A DNA stretch of 31,528 bases from a virus. The stretch lies in the IMG/VR virus record IMGVR_UViG_3300048759_000009, positions 1 through 31,528 of that record. One strand, 5' to 3'. A program made the position numbers and the translations under genes. This document shows, piece by piece, positions 2 through 27,767 of the stretch (position 1 is its first letter; the number at the start of each line of letters is the position of its first letter). Under the pieces are notes generated by a model that was given only the letters and a program-made list of their open reading frames with translations, was not told the origin of the DNA and made no database searches.

Positions 2-570
2 GACAATACTGTTGAGAACGTTGCGCGTGAGCTTGCATATCGCCTTGGCGAGAGTCTAAGCGCACTTGTCCGTGCTACAGCAGACGGTGCAAACGCAGTT
101 GATGCAAGCGTGCTTACGCAGCTTGGTGCAACAAGTCTTACTTCATTCACAACCTTGAGTCTTAACCAGATTCGTAACGCTGTTCAGAGTCTTGCTGGCC
201 GTTCGGTTCGTCCGTTCGACGAAGCATCAAAGACATTCTGCGGGGTCATTCATCCTTTCGGTGTAGGCGACGTTCTTGCTGACAACAGCAACGACTCACC
301 TATCGATATTTTGAAGCACACTCCCGTAGGCCAGTCTCGCATGGAAGACCTTCTTTCTGTTGATTTGACAGAGATGATCGAATTTCCTAGCTCTGGCGTT
401 CGTTTCTTCCAAACAAACCAAGTCACTCAGACAGCTACCTACAAGGGTGTTGCCGGTTTGACTGCACTGCGTACCTACATCTTCGGGCGTGATGGTATTT
501 TCTCTATCAAACTCGGTGCGCAAGGCGATACAGGCTTTGGTGACGGTGAATGGAGTAACATCAATTTGGT
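2..570 (+). CDS. Major capsid protein, exon 1 (5' end outside window)
   Basis: The open frame starts at base 2 and runs in from the left edge, so the N-terminus is missing. The product resembles N4-gp56-family major capsid proteins, which form the icosahedral shell: an alanine-rich helix followed by a region with HPFGVGDVLAD and the late beta segment RTYIFGRDGIFSI. The frame appears to stop at 578-580, but that stop lies inside a group I intron. The missing C-terminal motif (SVADPEG, then GWTSYKVHF) is found in frame after the intron. I place the 5' splice site after T570 because the last six exon bases pair with an internal guide at 596-601, with a U.G pair at the junction. Exons 2-570 and 1396-1546 together give 240 codons. 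Family assignment is by remembered pattern, not a search. Confidence 0.8.
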
Positions 571-614
571 GTCCCTCTAATCGAAAGATAGACGGGTTAA
601 AAAATCTTTTCTAA

Positions 615-643
615 TTGACTTGGAAGCTGAAATGTGCTACAAT
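615..643 (+). promoter_or_regulatory. Sigma70-like promoter inside the intron
   Basis: TTGACT (615-620) and TACAAT (638-643) are separated by 17 bases, close to the bacterial sigma70 consensus. It lies 120 bases upstream of the HNH gene and downstream of the intron guide, so a transcript from it could express the endonuclease but could not splice. It may be a chance match in AT-rich sequence. Confidence 0.5.
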
Positions 644-765
644 ATATTTGTAGTCGCTAACAGGGCGCAAGGATAACGAGGTTATCCAGCGTGAGAGACT
701 AAGTGAAAAGACACCCTTAGAAATTCGGGTGGTGCGATAGTCCGAACTTACGGGAAGGAATAAAA

Positions 766-1365
766 ATGGAAGCACACAATAAGACCAACATGGTTGGCAA
801 GCGATTCGGAAAATTATCAGTAATCGCTTCTACAGAATCAGAGAAAAACAGAGCGAGATGGGTCTGCCAATGTGATTGCGGAAGCAAATGCATAGCAACT
901 GGAAAAACCCTTCGTCAAGGCAAGAAACAAAGTTGTGGATGTATTAAGCGTGAGCAGTCAAGAGAATTAGTCAAAATTCTGCATAAGAATAATGAACTTT
1001 CGTTTGGCGAAGGCGCATGTAATCATCTAGCCTCAATTTACAAACTTGGGGCCGAGAAGAGAAAATTTCAATATAATCTAACAATAGAAGAATTTAGAAA
1101 ACTAACTTCTGATATTTGTTATTATTGCGGGAATTTACCAGCATTCTCACACAACGGAGTAACATGTTCTACATCATATATTTATAACGGTATCGACAGG
1201 GTTGATAATTCAATCGGCTACGTTATAGGAAATTGTGTCACTTGTTGCAGAATATGCAATTGGATGAAAAGAACACAGACTCAATCTGATTTTATAGCAA
1301 AATGTGAATCCATCGTAAACCATACCAACCGTAAGAAGTTAGCAGAAATGACTAACTATTACTGA
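766..1365 (+). CDS. HNH homing endonuclease of the intron
   Basis: A 199-aa DNA endonuclease expected to cut intronless copies of the capsid gene and so spread the intron. The N-terminal part has the zinc-type pattern often seen in phage HNH proteins: GKRFGKLSVI at 11-20, cysteines at 34, 36, 38, 57 and 59. The C-terminal HNH core has a CYYC knuckle (C118, C121), GIDRVDNS at 142-149 (D144, N148) and the closing cysteine group C157, C160, C161, C164 with N165. The ribosome site GGGAAGGAA precedes the ATG. It sits in the P9 part of the intron and resembles the HNH protein at 25476-26012 in architecture. Function is by family; the cut site is unknown. Confidence 0.88.
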   Translation: MEAHNKTNMVGKRFGKLSVIASTESEKNRARWVCQCDCGSKCIATGKTLRQGKKQSCGCIKREQSRELVKILHKNNELSFGEGACNHLASIYKLGAEKRKFQYNLTIEEFRKLTSDICYYCGNLPAFSHNGVTCSTSYIYNGIDRVDNSIGYVIGNCVTCCRICNWMKRTQTQSDFIAKCESIVNHTNRKKLAEMTNYY

Positions 1366-1395
1366 TACTAATTAGTAATTAACATAATGCAAATG

Positions 1396-4922: not shown

Positions 4923-5153
4923 ATGGCAGCAGGAGCAGCAGCTAGTATTCCATTTACAACACCCAATGCGGGAGATTTCACTTTAGCCCATAATCTAGGG
5001 TATCTCCCGCAAACTGTCATATTCGAGTTCACTAACGGAGGCACCGTCTGGTTTCAGCCTCAACGTTTCGATCTAGAGAACTTGTATTTAGTAGCATCAG
5101 ATGTAGGTGTCACCGGATGGGTTATTATTTGGGCCAGTTGTGCCGATTGTTAG
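4923..5153 (+). CDS. Small virion domain, first copy of a duplicated pair
   Basis: A 76-aa protein nearly identical in plan to the first 75 residues of the gene at 5702: IPFTTPNAGDFTLAHNLG, VIFEFTNGGTVWF and NLYLVASDVGVTGWVI. It looks like one small beta domain, of the sort used as an attachment or decoration module. An endonuclease gene sits between the two copies. It is either a free-standing small virion protein or the relic of a gene split by that endonuclease insertion. It begins 3 bases after the stop of the gene upstream. Confidence 0.65.
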   Translation: MAAGAAASIPFTTPNAGDFTLAHNLGYLPQTVIFEFTNGGTVWFQPQRFDLENLYLVASDVGVTGWVIIWASCADC

Positions 5154-5162
5154 AAAGGAAAT

Positions 5163-5705
5163 ATGAAAATTTGCTCTAAATGTGGAATTGAAAAGGAAGA
5201 TTTAGAGTTTTATGCAGATCAGTTATGTAAAAGACGGCGCGGAGCGCAGCGGTATTGTAAAGAATGTAAAAAGCAATACAGCAAAGAATGGTATAAAAAT
5301 AACGCCGATAGACAAAAAATAATAGCAGCAGAGTGGCGAAAGAACAACAAAGAGCACGATGATCAAAAGCGCAAAGAGTGGCACGAACGCAATAAAGACA
5401 AGATTAAATTAAAAGCAAAGGCAACTCGTTTGTCTAAATACTCATTAGCAGAGTCTTCATTTTTAGAAATACTGGAAAAACAAAATGGATGTTGCGCTAT
5501 TTGTGGCTTTAAGTTTATCTTTGGCAATGTGACAACTGCCCCGTGTATAGATCATGACCACACATGTTGTTCTGGTAATTCTAATAGTTGCGGAAAATGC
5601 ATTCGTGGATTACTTTGTGTGCATTGTAATGCCGGTTTAGGAAGATTTAAAGATAGCCTTGACCTGCTTAGCCGTGCATTTAATTACATAGAGGAAAGTC
5701 GATGA
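5163..5705 (+). CDS. HNH nuclease of endonuclease VII type
   Basis: A 180-aa nuclease. The N-terminal zinc knuckles are C4, C7, C32 and C35; a long basic helical linker follows; the C-terminal domain has C111, C114, the HNH histidine region IDHDHTC (D130-H133) and C152, C155, N156 followed by AGLGRFKDS. This is the recombination endonuclease VII (T4 gp49-like) Pfam pattern, a family used both for Holliday junction resolution and for homing in phages. It is placed between two copies of a small virion domain and its stop overlaps the next start (ATGA at 5702), so a homing role is more likely here than a resolvase role. Ribosome site GAAAGGAA. Confidence 0.88.
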   Translation: MKICSKCGIEKEDLEFYADQLCKRRRGAQRYCKECKKQYSKEWYKNNADRQKIIAAEWRKNNKEHDDQKRKEWHERNKDKIKLKAKATRLSKYSLAESSFLEILEKQNGCCAICGFKFIFGNVTTAPCIDHDHTCCSGNSNSCGKCIRGLLCVHCNAGLGRFKDSLDLLSRAFNYIEESR

Positions 5706-7051
5706 TACCTTCAGTCCAAATAGCATTTACTACCTCGGCACCCGGCCCGTTTACCTTGCCTCACAATCTTGGAGTTGTTCCGGGTTCAGTAATCTTCGAA
5801 TTAACTGCTGGCGGGGTGATTTGGTTTGCCCCAGTACGTTATGATGCTTCAAATTTGTATTTAGTAGCATCCGATACCGGCGTCACCGGATTCGCCATTG
5901 TGTTTGCAAGTTCAACACCGGCTTGCACGATGCAAGGCCAGAACTCCACAATTCGTTTACAGGAAGTCGTAGATGATGCAGCAACACTGGGAGATGTCGC
6001 ACCGGCCCTAGCAACGGGCGGGGCAAGTATGGCACCGGCTCTGAGTATCGCCAATGATGTGATGCAGGCGATCATCAACGGTGGTCCGGGTGCTCAACCA
6101 TACAACTGGAAATGGAATCGCTACAATCTTCCTGTGTTCTACACTAATAGTTTACAGCAAGACTATTTTATACCCAATCTATTTAACATCGGTTGGATTG
6201 AATCCGCATGGGCAGTTAACATAAATCAGACTTCGGTTCCGAAACAGAAGATTCCACTAGAAGTTGACAAAGATTTACTGGTGACATATCAGCAAGCTTG
6301 TTACACCGGCAAAGTTTCATGGTTACCTAACAAGATGTTGCTAACAGGGACATGGGGCGCATCCCCATTAGGCCCTACTCCGGGTTATCCATCTGGGCAG
6401 ACAATTGTAGCCGGGCCAAACCAGAGCGGTCAACAGAATCCGGGTCCAAACGTAGTATACACAAACCCACTTGGAACACTAATTACTCCATACAATGCTA
6501 CGACAGCAATCAAAGACCCTTATGGCAACTTATGGTGTTTGACAACTTATGGACAATGTGGGACTGTAGAACCAACGTGGCCTAGTAATCCAACTTATCC
6601 AACCATTAGAAACCCACAGATACTGCCTTCAACGGTAGTAGATGGTACTTGTGTATGGACAGCGATTAATCCTAACGGTCAAGGAATCCGATTAGCCCCA
6701 ATTCCACCACAATCAGGAGTTGTCTGGGCCATTCAAGTAGTCGGGCAAATGGTTGCACCTAGATTCTTTAATCTGACCCAATATTTGAACCCGCTTCCCG
6801 ACACAATGGAATGGGCTTTTCGTCAAGGTTTCTTTGCAGGATGCTTCAGACGAAATCCTGATCCAAAGGTCCGAGCCAAGTTTCCACAAGAACAACAGCT
6901 ATGGCTTGAGTCGTTAGATAAAGCTGTGCGTCAGTATGATCGGGAACCTGATGATTTTGGGTTCTACCCCGGTACAATGATCTTAGATACCGGCTTTGGA
7001 GTCCAACCTATACGTCCCGATTGGCCGTATGGCCCTTGGAATGGGTGGTAA
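5702..7051 (+). CDS. Putative head-tail adaptor/tail protein with duplicated N-domain
   Basis: A 449-aa protein. Residues 1-75 are the second copy of the small beta domain at 4923. The rest (about 80-449) has a helical start (VMQAIINGGPG) and then PYNWKWNRYNLPVF, QQDYFIPN and WIESAWAV, the same order as in the gene at 7155 (FAWRWNRAVIGF, QQDYTIFN, WIETASV). The C-terminal half has a helical segment (MEWAFRQGFFAGCF) like the adaptor's. I read it as a podovirus connector or tail-tube adaptor relative with an inserted Pro/Gly-rich region (about 220-330). Exact role is inference. The terminator at 7101 follows. Confidence 0.6.
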   Translation: MIPSVQIAFTTSAPGPFTLPHNLGVVPGSVIFELTAGGVIWFAPVRYDASNLYLVASDTGVTGFAIVFASSTPACTMQGQNSTIRLQEVVDDAATLGDVAPALATGGASMAPALSIANDVMQAIINGGPGAQPYNWKWNRYNLPVFYTNSLQQDYFIPNLFNIGWIESAWAVNINQTSVPKQKIPLEVDKDLLVTYQQACYTGKVSWLPNKMLLTGTWGASPLGPTPGYPSGQTIVAGPNQSGQQNPGPNVVYTNPLGTLITPYNATTAIKDPYGNLWCLTTYGQCGTVEPTWPSNPTYPTIRNPQILPSTVVDGTCVWTAINPNGQGIRLAPIPPQSGVVWAIQVVGQMVAPRFFNLTQYLNPLPDTMEWAFRQGFFAGCFRRNPDPKVRAKFPQEQQLWLESLDKAVRQYDREPDDFGFYPGTMILDTGFGVQPIRPDWPYGPWNGW

Positions 7052-25080: not shown

Positions 25081-25489
25081 TAGTCCATATCCAGATGGAT
25101 GGCCAAACGGTTCTCCAGTGTTATCAACGCCAGCTTCACTCGAACTAGTCGCGTCGATTGTGACGCACAAGGTAGACGGTAAGTATCTTCCAACTGATGC
25201 CGCAACGCGCAAAGCTACTCCCATCGCTACTGGAGTATTGGATTATTTCCCGAAAGCTTTGGCGGAGGTCGCCAAAGTAAGCCGCATTGGAAATGAACAA
25301 CACAACGGAGTCGGAACTCCTTTACATTGGGATAAATCAAAATCTTCCGATCATGCGGATTGTTTGATCAGACACCTACTAGAGCGCGGAACAACAGACA
25401 CAGACGGCGCTTTACATTCGGCAAAAGTCGCATGGAGGGCACTCGCACTTCTAGAACAGGAATTAGAACATAACGATGAAACTTCCTAA
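25055..25489 (+). CDS. DUF5664/dATP-dGTP diphosphohydrolase-like protein
   Basis: A 144-aa protein with a GTG start at 25055 after GGGAGGGT. Residues about 60-137 fit the N-terminal domain of dATP/dGTP diphosphohydrolases (DUF5664): YFPKALAEVAKVSRIGNEQH, then DHADCLIRHLLERGTTDTDG and HSAKVAWRALALLEQELE. This family, related in fold to MazG, removes pyrophosphate from purine dNTPs and is found in phage nucleotide clusters. The first 55 residues are disordered. It overlaps its neighbours at both ends. With MazG and NrdJ in the window it suggests pool control. Confidence 0.72.
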   Translation: MSRREERFSSPYPDGWPNGSPVLSTPASLELVASIVTHKVDGKYLPTDAATRKATPIATGVLDYFPKALAEVAKVSRIGNEQHNGVGTPLHWDKSKSSDHADCLIRHLLERGTTDTDGALHSAKVAWRALALLEQELEHNDETS

Positions 25490-26012
25490 GAAAGATTACA
25501 CTGGTCAAACAATTAACAACAGAACCGTAATACGGTTCTCGCATTGGAGCAAAGGAAACGACCCTTTGTGGTCAGTACGATGCAAATGTGGTACCGAGTT
25601 TGATTCATTGACACAAGATTTAAAACGTTCCGAATGTCGTGGATGCTGGAATATTAGCCATAGAAAACGACCGTTTGAATCGCTGTATAATGCATTTGTA
25701 CAGAAAGCTTCGAAAAGATATGAAGTTACTATAACTTATGCTGAGTTTGTAGAATTTACCGTTACCAAGTCTTGTTATTATTGTGACCACCCGGTAGAGT
25801 GGCTGGAATGGCAAACTCGTAAGAAAGGCAAGCTGTATAGAGGTCACGTTTACAACCTAGACCGGACAGATAACAGTATCGGTTATACAAAGGAAAATTG
25901 TGTCGTATGTTGCAAGCGTTGTAACTTCGGCAAAGGTACTGATTTTACACATGACGAGTGGAAACAATTAGGAGCCGTCATACGAACGTGGAAGGAGAAA
26001 GATGCCAGCTAA
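25476..26012 (+). CDS. HNH endonuclease, free-standing
   Basis: A 178-aa HNH protein. N-terminal zinc pattern: C36, C38 and C54, C57 (VRCKCG, SECRGCW). Core: SCYYC (C100, C103), YNLDRTDNSIGY (D129, N133), then NCVVCCKRCN (C142, C145, C149, N150). It is close in plan to the intron HNH protein at 766 but has no intron around it. The ATG at 25476 overlaps the end of the previous gene. It is most likely a homing endonuclease that has settled at a gene boundary. Confidence 0.85.
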   Translation: MKLPKKDYTGQTINNRTVIRFSHWSKGNDPLWSVRCKCGTEFDSLTQDLKRSECRGCWNISHRKRPFESLYNAFVQKASKRYEVTITYAEFVEFTVTKSCYYCDHPVEWLEWQTRKKGKLYRGHVYNLDRTDNSIGYTKENCVVCCKRCNFGKGTDFTHDEWKQLGAVIRTWKEKDAS

Positions 26013-27092: not shown

Positions 27093-27168
27093 GGGTTGGC
27101 AGCTCAATCGGGAGAGCAATTCCCTTGCACGGAAAAGGTTGCAGGTTCGATGCCTGTCCGATCCACCA
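27093..27168 (+). tRNA. tRNA-Ala (TGC)
   Basis: A full cloverleaf: acceptor GGGTTGG/CCGATCC, D stem GCTC/GAGC, anticodon loop CTTGCAC (anticodon TGC), T stem GCAGG/CCTGT with loop TTCGATG, A73 and encoded CCA. The G3.U70 pair, the alanine identity mark, is present. The first anticodon-stem pair (A27-A43) is mismatched. Confidence 0.93.
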
Positions 27169-27176
27169 AAACTCAA

Positions 27177-27252
27177 GAGCCATTAACTCAATTGGTAGAG
27201 TGCTTGCCCTACAAGCAAGATGTTCTAGGTTCAAGTCCTAGATGGCTAACCA
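27177..27252 (+). tRNA. tRNA-Val (TAC)
   Basis: Acceptor GAGCCAT/ATGGCTA (G1-A72 mismatched), D stem ACTC/GAGT, anticodon stem CTTGC/GCAAG with loop CCTACAA (anticodon TAC), T stem CTAGG/CCTAG, A73, CCA encoded. It is 76 nt long. The outer mismatch is the only defect. Confidence 0.92.
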
Positions 27253-27258
27253 CATTAC

Positions 27259-27332
27259 TCCCGTTTCGTTTAATGGTAGGACCGTTGGCTTTGACCCAAC
27301 AGGCTGATGTTCGATTCATCACGCGGGAGCCA
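27259..27332 (+). tRNA. tRNA-Gln (TTG)
   Basis: Acceptor TCCCGTT/CGCGGGA, with the weak U1-A72 pair that is a glutamine identity mark; anticodon stem GTTGG/CCAAC with loop CTTTGAC (anticodon TTG); T stem TGATG/CATCA; G73, as expected for Gln; CCA encoded. It is 74 nt long. Confidence 0.92.
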
Positions 27333-27405
27333 ACAACACAAGGATATTGACCAAAGAGTTGATGAACAAATGCAAGATAGAAACTTGCGAGTAGATTACC
27401 TTTAA

Positions 27406-27480
27406 GCGGGATTAGTGTTAATGGTAGCACGTCAGTCTTCCAAACTGAAAGTATCCGTTCGACTCGGATATCCCGCTCCA
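27406..27480 (+). tRNA. tRNA-Gly (TCC)
   Basis: Acceptor GCGGGAT/ATCCCGC fully paired, D stem GTGT/GCAC, anticodon stem TCAGT/ACTGA with loop CTTCCAA (anticodon TCC), T stem ATCCG/CGGAT, U73 and CCA encoded. It is 75 nt long. Confidence 0.95.
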
Positions 27481-27487
27481 AACTTTG

Positions 27488-27556
27488 AATTGGCGACACA
27501 TGCCTAGTCCTTTGGACTAAAGTTGCGTGACACGGGTGAGAGAACTCGACCAAATT
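27488..27556 (+). other. Cloverleaf-like region between tRNAs
   Basis: Between tRNA-Gly and tRNA-Thr there are hairpins TAGTCC/GGACTA (27505-27519) and CGGGT/ACTCG (27533-27548), and outer bases TTGG (27490-27493) and CCAA (27550-27553) that could close them. There is no T-loop TTC motif or normal anticodon loop. It may be a decayed tRNA or a processing structure. Confidence 0.25.
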
Positions 27557-27560
27557 TAAC

Positions 27561-27637
27561 GCTAGTATAGCTCAGAAGGTTAGAGCGCCTGATTTGTAAT
27601 CAGGGGGTCGCAGGTTCAATTCCTGCTGCTAGCTCCA
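27561..27637 (+). tRNA. tRNA-Thr (TGT)
   Basis: Acceptor GCTAGTA/TGCTAGC, D stem GCTC/GAGC, anticodon stem CCTGA/TCAGG with loop TTTGTAA (anticodon TGT), T stem GCAGG/CCTGC, U73, CCA encoded. It is 77 nt long, with no mismatches beyond one wobble. Confidence 0.96.
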
Positions 27638-27691
27638 CATTCATCTCGTTGTATTTATATAACGGCCCCCCTTCTTTCGGGAAAGGGATTC

Positions 27692-27767
27692 GCGGGTGTA
27701 AGCTCAACTGGAAAACTGTCGGTCTCCAAAACCGAACTTGCTAGTTCGAACCTAGCCAGCCGCGCCA
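27692..27767 (+). tRNA. tRNA-Trp (CCA)
   Basis: Acceptor GCGGGTG/CAGCCGC with one G5-G68 mismatch, D stem GCTC near AACTGGAAAA, anticodon stem TCGGT/ACCGA with loop CTCCAAA (anticodon CCA), T stem GCTAG/CTAGC, G73 as in tryptophan tRNAs, and encoded CCA. The D-stem second strand is irregular, so folding efficiency may be reduced. Confidence 0.88.

Follow-up and report, generated by a model that had tools for sequence, protein, structure and literature searches.

Nucleotides 562–1389 of the 31,528-nt stretch of DNA analysed here (the window, IMG/VR record IMGVR_UViG_3300048759_000009) very probably represent a mobile group I intron, located in the gene for the major capsid protein of a soil phage, a relative of Tunturi_3. 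The features shown at the sequence level are those of a candidate intron of this type: a group I core, a terminal U (exon) and G (intron), a guide in which P10 is followed by P1, an intact HNH-like ORF, and an insertion point precisely where the intronless relatives show no additional sequence. An earlier, sequence-only reading of the same DNA had proposed that a group I intron splits the capsid gene and makes it look truncated. That proposal is upheld by intronless homologues, a covariance model built without the window, covariation and guide pairings. Its description of the intron as cellular was mistaken, as the record is viral.

The window is a 31.5-kb virus record, the gene content of which follows that of the Tunturiibacter phage Tunturi_3, a podovirus with an Acidobacteriota host (PMC11924767). 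When the 32 Tunturi_3 proteins were compared with the window (tBLASTn), gp6, the 'major head protein', was the only one found to be specified by an intron-like split gene: residues 106–292 matched nt 2–562 and residues 293–343 matched nt 1391–1543. The intronless capsid protein of locus L009 (344 aa) matched phrog_1357 ('major head protein', E = 2.8e-17). Residues 12–191 of the same protein matched the N4-gp56 model TIGR04387 (E = 7.5e-11) with a score of 41.9 bits, below the curated cutoff of 60, so that the suggested N4-gp56 identity can be retained only as a distant relationship and not as membership of the family. A Pfam search found no capsid family, and AlphaFold modelling of the full capsid protein returned no usable fold (mean pLDDT 30.9).

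The 5′ part of the capsid gene precedes the start of the window, and the ORF at nt 2–580 is a fragment of this gene. It ends at the stop codon at nt 578–580, which the sequence-only reading expected to mislead annotation, and the missing C-terminus is found downstream of the intron (Table 1). The joined frame (nt 2–561 plus 1390–1546) specifies 238 aa plus stop. Relatives specify the protein with no such insert: in a search with the joined protein, 78 of 80 loci, among the matches listed, aligned across the junction without an insert. The remaining two (L066 and L068) are contigs from other metagenomes that hold an identical intron.

Table 1. Coordinates of the predicted intron, its structural elements and the flanking exons (nt of the window).
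Feature	Position	Strand	Basis
Capsid exon upstream of intron	2–561	+	ORF 2–580; homologous to L009 residues ~107–293
Group I intron, corrected boundaries	562–1389	+	Gapless join, P1 plus P10, match to model R1
P1: exon ACAU 558–561 / GUGU 569–572, U561·G569 at 5′ splice site	558–572	+	Guide-pairing test
P10 guide AUUUG, pairing with 3′ exon CAAAU 1390–1394	564–568	+	Guide-pairing test
P2 hairpin, GAAA loop	573–596	+	Read from sequence; RNAfold of ORF-less intron
Catalytic core	605–742	+	Covariation in 33 relatives; match to model R1 at 605–739
P3	605–611/705–711	+	Core helix
P4	619–622/661–664	+	Core helix
P6	665–668/689–692	+	Core helix
P6a	671–676/682–687	+	Core helix
P7	697–701/738–742	+	Pairing in all relatives, invariant
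P8	712–716/727–731	+	Core helix
P9 strands CUUACGG 747–753 / CCGUAAG 1329–1335, enclosing the start and most of the ORF	747–1335	+	Counterparts in L162 and L195
HNH/endonuclease VII-like homing endonuclease ORF, 199 aa, in P9 loop	766–1365	+	PHROG matches; L162 homologue at same place
P9.1 hairpin GUUAG/CUAAC	1338–1356	+	Matching hairpins in L195 and L162
Last capsid exon with stop codon	1390–1546	+	Missing C-terminus of capsid

Two candidate junctions were compared directly in the window. The sequence-only reading had joined T570 to T1396, with a P1 of its own, while the alternative joins T561 to C1390. Joining at 561/1390 gives the protein sequence NIKCNIVQ, the same as in relatives; at the nucleotide level, AACAT is joined to CAAATGTAAT, and the sequence across the junction (...SNIKCNIVQNAEP...) matches the relatives' own. 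This join outscored 570/1396 against all 74 distinct intronless capsids, and a gap near the junction was seen in none of the 74 comparisons. The 570/1396 join (AATTTGGT followed by TAATATT) also restores the frame, has a T before the intron and a G at its end, and allows a weak P1 of 6 bp to be drawn. It leaves, however, one residue too many relative to every one of the 74 intronless capsids, with a gap near the junction in 74 of 74 comparisons, and a 3-base gap against the intronless sequences. The guide pairings gave the same answer. At 561/1390, P1 plus P10 amount to 9 bp, a score reached by 0.7% of shuffled sequences (p 0.007), compared with 7 bp at 570/1396, reached by 36% (p 0.36), and of the two junctions only 561/1390 has guide pairings above chance. 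The P1 of the window is short (4 bp), while that of the same-site relative L085 has 7 bp (AGAACAU/GUGUUCU). U561 would end the 5′ exon in a U·G wobble, G1389 would end the intron, and the 5-bp P10 covaries in L195 and L162, where it reads AUUCG/CGAAU with one pair altered on both strands. The introns of L195, L162 and L085 all pair at the equivalents of 561/1390. As gapless joins and guide pairings agree, the predicted intron is nt 562–1389 (828 nt), with T561 joined to C1390. Splicing at 570/1396 is considered very unlikely, and relative to the predicted ends the earlier sites are off by 9 nt at the 5′ end and 6 nt at the 3′ end.

The core structure was assessed by comparison with related introns. 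Relatives were gathered by a P7 pattern, 33 core sequences were aligned with the window excluded, and the helices P3, P4, P5, P6, P6a, P7 and P8 were written down. Across the 33 relatives, 94.3% of cells were paired compared with 76% in shuffles, and 165 double-change cells were observed compared with 46; when the weakest pairs were dropped, 97.8% of cells were paired. The structure was drawn by eye from the same relatives and the pairing percentages lean towards it, so the safer evidence is provided by the control in which the partner strand was slid, which lowered pairing to 34–44%, and by RNAalifold, which recovered all helices except P7, a pseudoknot beyond its prediction. P3, P4, P5, P6 and P8 are supported by covariation, as expected for the core helices of a group I intron. 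The P7 pairing, pseudoknotted with P3, is present in 33 of 33 relatives and in the window, and every one of its pairs is invariant, hence it carries no covariation signal. Of the pairings pointed out in the sequence-only reading, P8 is real and P7 probably so. More peripherally, the P9 strands of L162 read CUUAAAG/CUUUAAG, and P9 is also found in L195, which is without the ORF.

A covariance model built from the 33 relatives without the window (R1) matched nt 605–739 (68.5 bits, E = 4.4e-13; 91.9 bits with default filters), and the next-best place in the window scored 12.4 bits. Searches with the Rfam group I model (RF00028, Intron_gpI), using either gathering or E-value thresholds, gave no match in the window, nor in nine loci that hold related introns. 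The whole intron family is missed, including relatives that clearly share the structure, and the negative result is therefore an uninformative blind spot of the model, a match to which does not define a group I intron. The lack of a covariance match, named in the sequence-only reading as a refuting result, accordingly does not refute the intron. Because Rfam misses this family, capsid genes of this kind have likely been recorded as truncated or absent.

The ORF within the P9 loop is intact and runs, at its 3′ end, through the 3′ strands of both P9 and P9.1. It matched PHROG 1035 (E = 9.7e-16) and PHROG 374 (E = 5.7e-13), which relates it to the HNH/endonuclease VII phage nucleases; a Pfam search of the ORF returned no family match. 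Relatives were found in 191 phage records, with 34–39% identity to the ORFs of named phages. An HNH gene could also have landed in the capsid gene without being spliced, leaving the gene truncated or dead, or its two pieces as separate proteins, and free-standing HNH-type genes do occur elsewhere in the window (nt 5163–5705 and 25,476–26,012). The ORF is, however, surrounded by a complete, conserved group I core, both exons are intact and gapless, the arrangement recurs unchanged in two more contigs, both from other metagenomes, and exon 2 has no start codon arrangement suggestive of a separate protein. An unspliced insert is accordingly judged to be highly improbable. A group II intron, an intein or ribosomal bypassing would each likewise leave a continuous capsid protein, but an intein is excluded by the in-frame stops from nt 578, a group II 5′ end (GUGYG) is absent from the junction, and bypassing does not accord with an 828-nt insert occupied by a group I core; such inserts have scarcely any likelihood.

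Under the favoured interpretation, a group I intron, the RNA would fold, bind guanosine at P7 and excise itself by guanosine-initiated splicing. Cleavage would occur after U561, and with the 3′ exon kept in place by P10, U561 and C1390 would be joined. Intronless capsid alleles would be cut by the HNH protein, and repair would copy the intron into them. These steps, and any influence of splicing on the yield of capsid protein, are predictions from the sequence. In unspliced RNA the frame stops at nt 578–580 and approximately the last 51 residues of the capsid protein would be lost, therefore virion formation should depend on splicing.

Introns occupy the same site in several relatives. Those of L162, L189 and L271 carry an HNH ORF, which in L162 is homologous and at the same place as that of the window, and those of L195 (218 nt) and L085 (196 nt) are without one. 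When mapped on a tree of 90 different capsid segments, these five rows require five changes, a number not below that for randomly assigned labels. The intron-bearing L271 shares 94.6% identity with L211 and L056, neither of which has the intron. This patchy distribution is the pattern expected of homing, as far as sequence comparison can indicate. Near-identical alleles with and without each intron provide ready material for homing experiments.

Capsid introns are already known from the mycobacteriophage LittleE (Cluster J), in which splicing of an intron of ~820 nt in the major capsid gene was proven by RT-PCR and N-terminal sequencing of the capsid protein (PMC3706429), and from the lactococcal phage Tuc2009 (as cited in PMC3706429), so that the intron in the window would add to a known kind. 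As in the window, a U ends exon 1 of LittleE, a G ends the intron, a homing endonuclease ORF lies inside, and intronless homologues are known (PMC3706429). The phage and capsid are different, however, and the endonuclease ORF of LittleE, for which a resemblance to LAGLIDADG was noted, lies on the opposite strand (PMC3706429). The type of the LittleE intron was inferred ('most likely a group I'; PMC3706429), whereas in the window the core and its covariation have been worked out and splicing is predicted from sequence.

A longer, near-identical contig (L066) does not differ from the window in the capsid exons and intron that were compared. Upstream of the position at which the window starts, it has two further inserts in the capsid gene, L066:2888–3897 (1,010 nt) and L066:3966–4846 (881 nt), each with a LAGLIDADG ORF. 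These gave sub-threshold matches to RF00028 (E = 0.0004 and 0.0085), and the first has no G at its 3′ end under the junctions tested. In a set of 171 loci, in which some contigs are represented by more than one overlapping segment, 74 distinct inserts were found at about 15 capsid sites, with five inserts each in L146 and L111. Junctions in these other loci were placed by a script with a bonus for inserts preceded by T and ending in G, and small shifts were allowed in the P1/P10 test, hence both the precise positions and the p-values are less firm there than in the window. Going by these predicted inserts, the capsid gene of this phage group is an unusual hotspot for introns. Group I introns and homing endonucleases repeatedly interrupt genes of Jug phages, in which metatranscriptome reads support splicing; the examples reported are terL, nrdD and DNA polymerase (PMC12363816), whereas here the hotspot is the major capsid gene. 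Since few phage proteins are made in such quantity as the capsid protein, a requirement for one to five splicing events in each mRNA would put the efficiency of phage ribozymes and the timing of virion production to the test.

Outside the window, eleven distinct mini-inserts of 40–97 nt, none a multiple of three, were found in the capsid genes of L032, L035, L076, L102, L111, L146, L170, L203, L233 and L242, at sites 21, 23, 53, 55, 308 and 314 of the 344-aa capsid protein. A pattern scan for more mini-inserts at site 53 returned only the two known contigs. Each mini-insert ends in G and has, besides a P10, a P1 with U·G at the 5′ site, a score that is reached by at most 0.6% of shuffles. All are too short for a conventional group I core, and all are followed, later in the capsid gene concerned, by an insert of full size. 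Contigs that are ~97% identical but without the mini-insert and its neighbours exist for L233 (L228) and L242 (L253). Ribosomal bypassing is a less likely explanation, since the last triplet of most mini-inserts (TTG, ATG) mismatches the take-off codon (TAT, GAT, CCT) and a paired P1 and P10 guide would not be expected. Introns of 63–75 nt in Phialophora rRNA genes, one of which (PaSSU, 67 nt) splices in vitro, resemble the mini-inserts in having P1 and P10 splice-site pairings and in missing most of the core (PMC3160393). They differ in that P7 is present and the one tested ends in U (PMC3160393), whereas the phage mini-inserts, which are mostly shorter, interrupt a protein-coding gene and have a terminal G; the comparison covered P1 and P10. 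It is conceivable, although the chances are put at somewhat below even, that the capsid gene of this clade is a splicing mosaic of up to five inserts, in which the mini-inserts, if spliced, would either be helped by a neighbouring ribozyme or be the smallest group I introns known. Splicing of inserts without a core would, if true, raise the question of the source of catalysis.

Several other features were seen in the related loci and in the window. In L058 an intron (nt 2584–2824) lies near the end of the capsid gene, and its 5′ end encodes LRTIDAASAIS-stop where the spliced exon gives IREIDAASAIS-stop, so that unspliced RNA would also yield a complete capsid protein. Related group I introns are present in L071–L075, L009 and L001 (nt ~430–750), and in L071–L075 and L009 they are located upstream of the capsid gene, close to where the portal gene begins. 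In the window, the free-standing endonuclease VII-like (HNH-type) ORF at nt 5163–5705 is placed between similar short ORFs (nt 4923–5153 and the start of 5702–7051) that look like a duplicated domain. At the second such HNH/endonuclease VII-like ORF (nt 25,476–26,012) no intron was found by the model. Six tRNA genes (Ala, Val, Gln, Gly, Thr and Trp; nt 27,093–27,767) are situated just upstream of a phage lysozyme gene.
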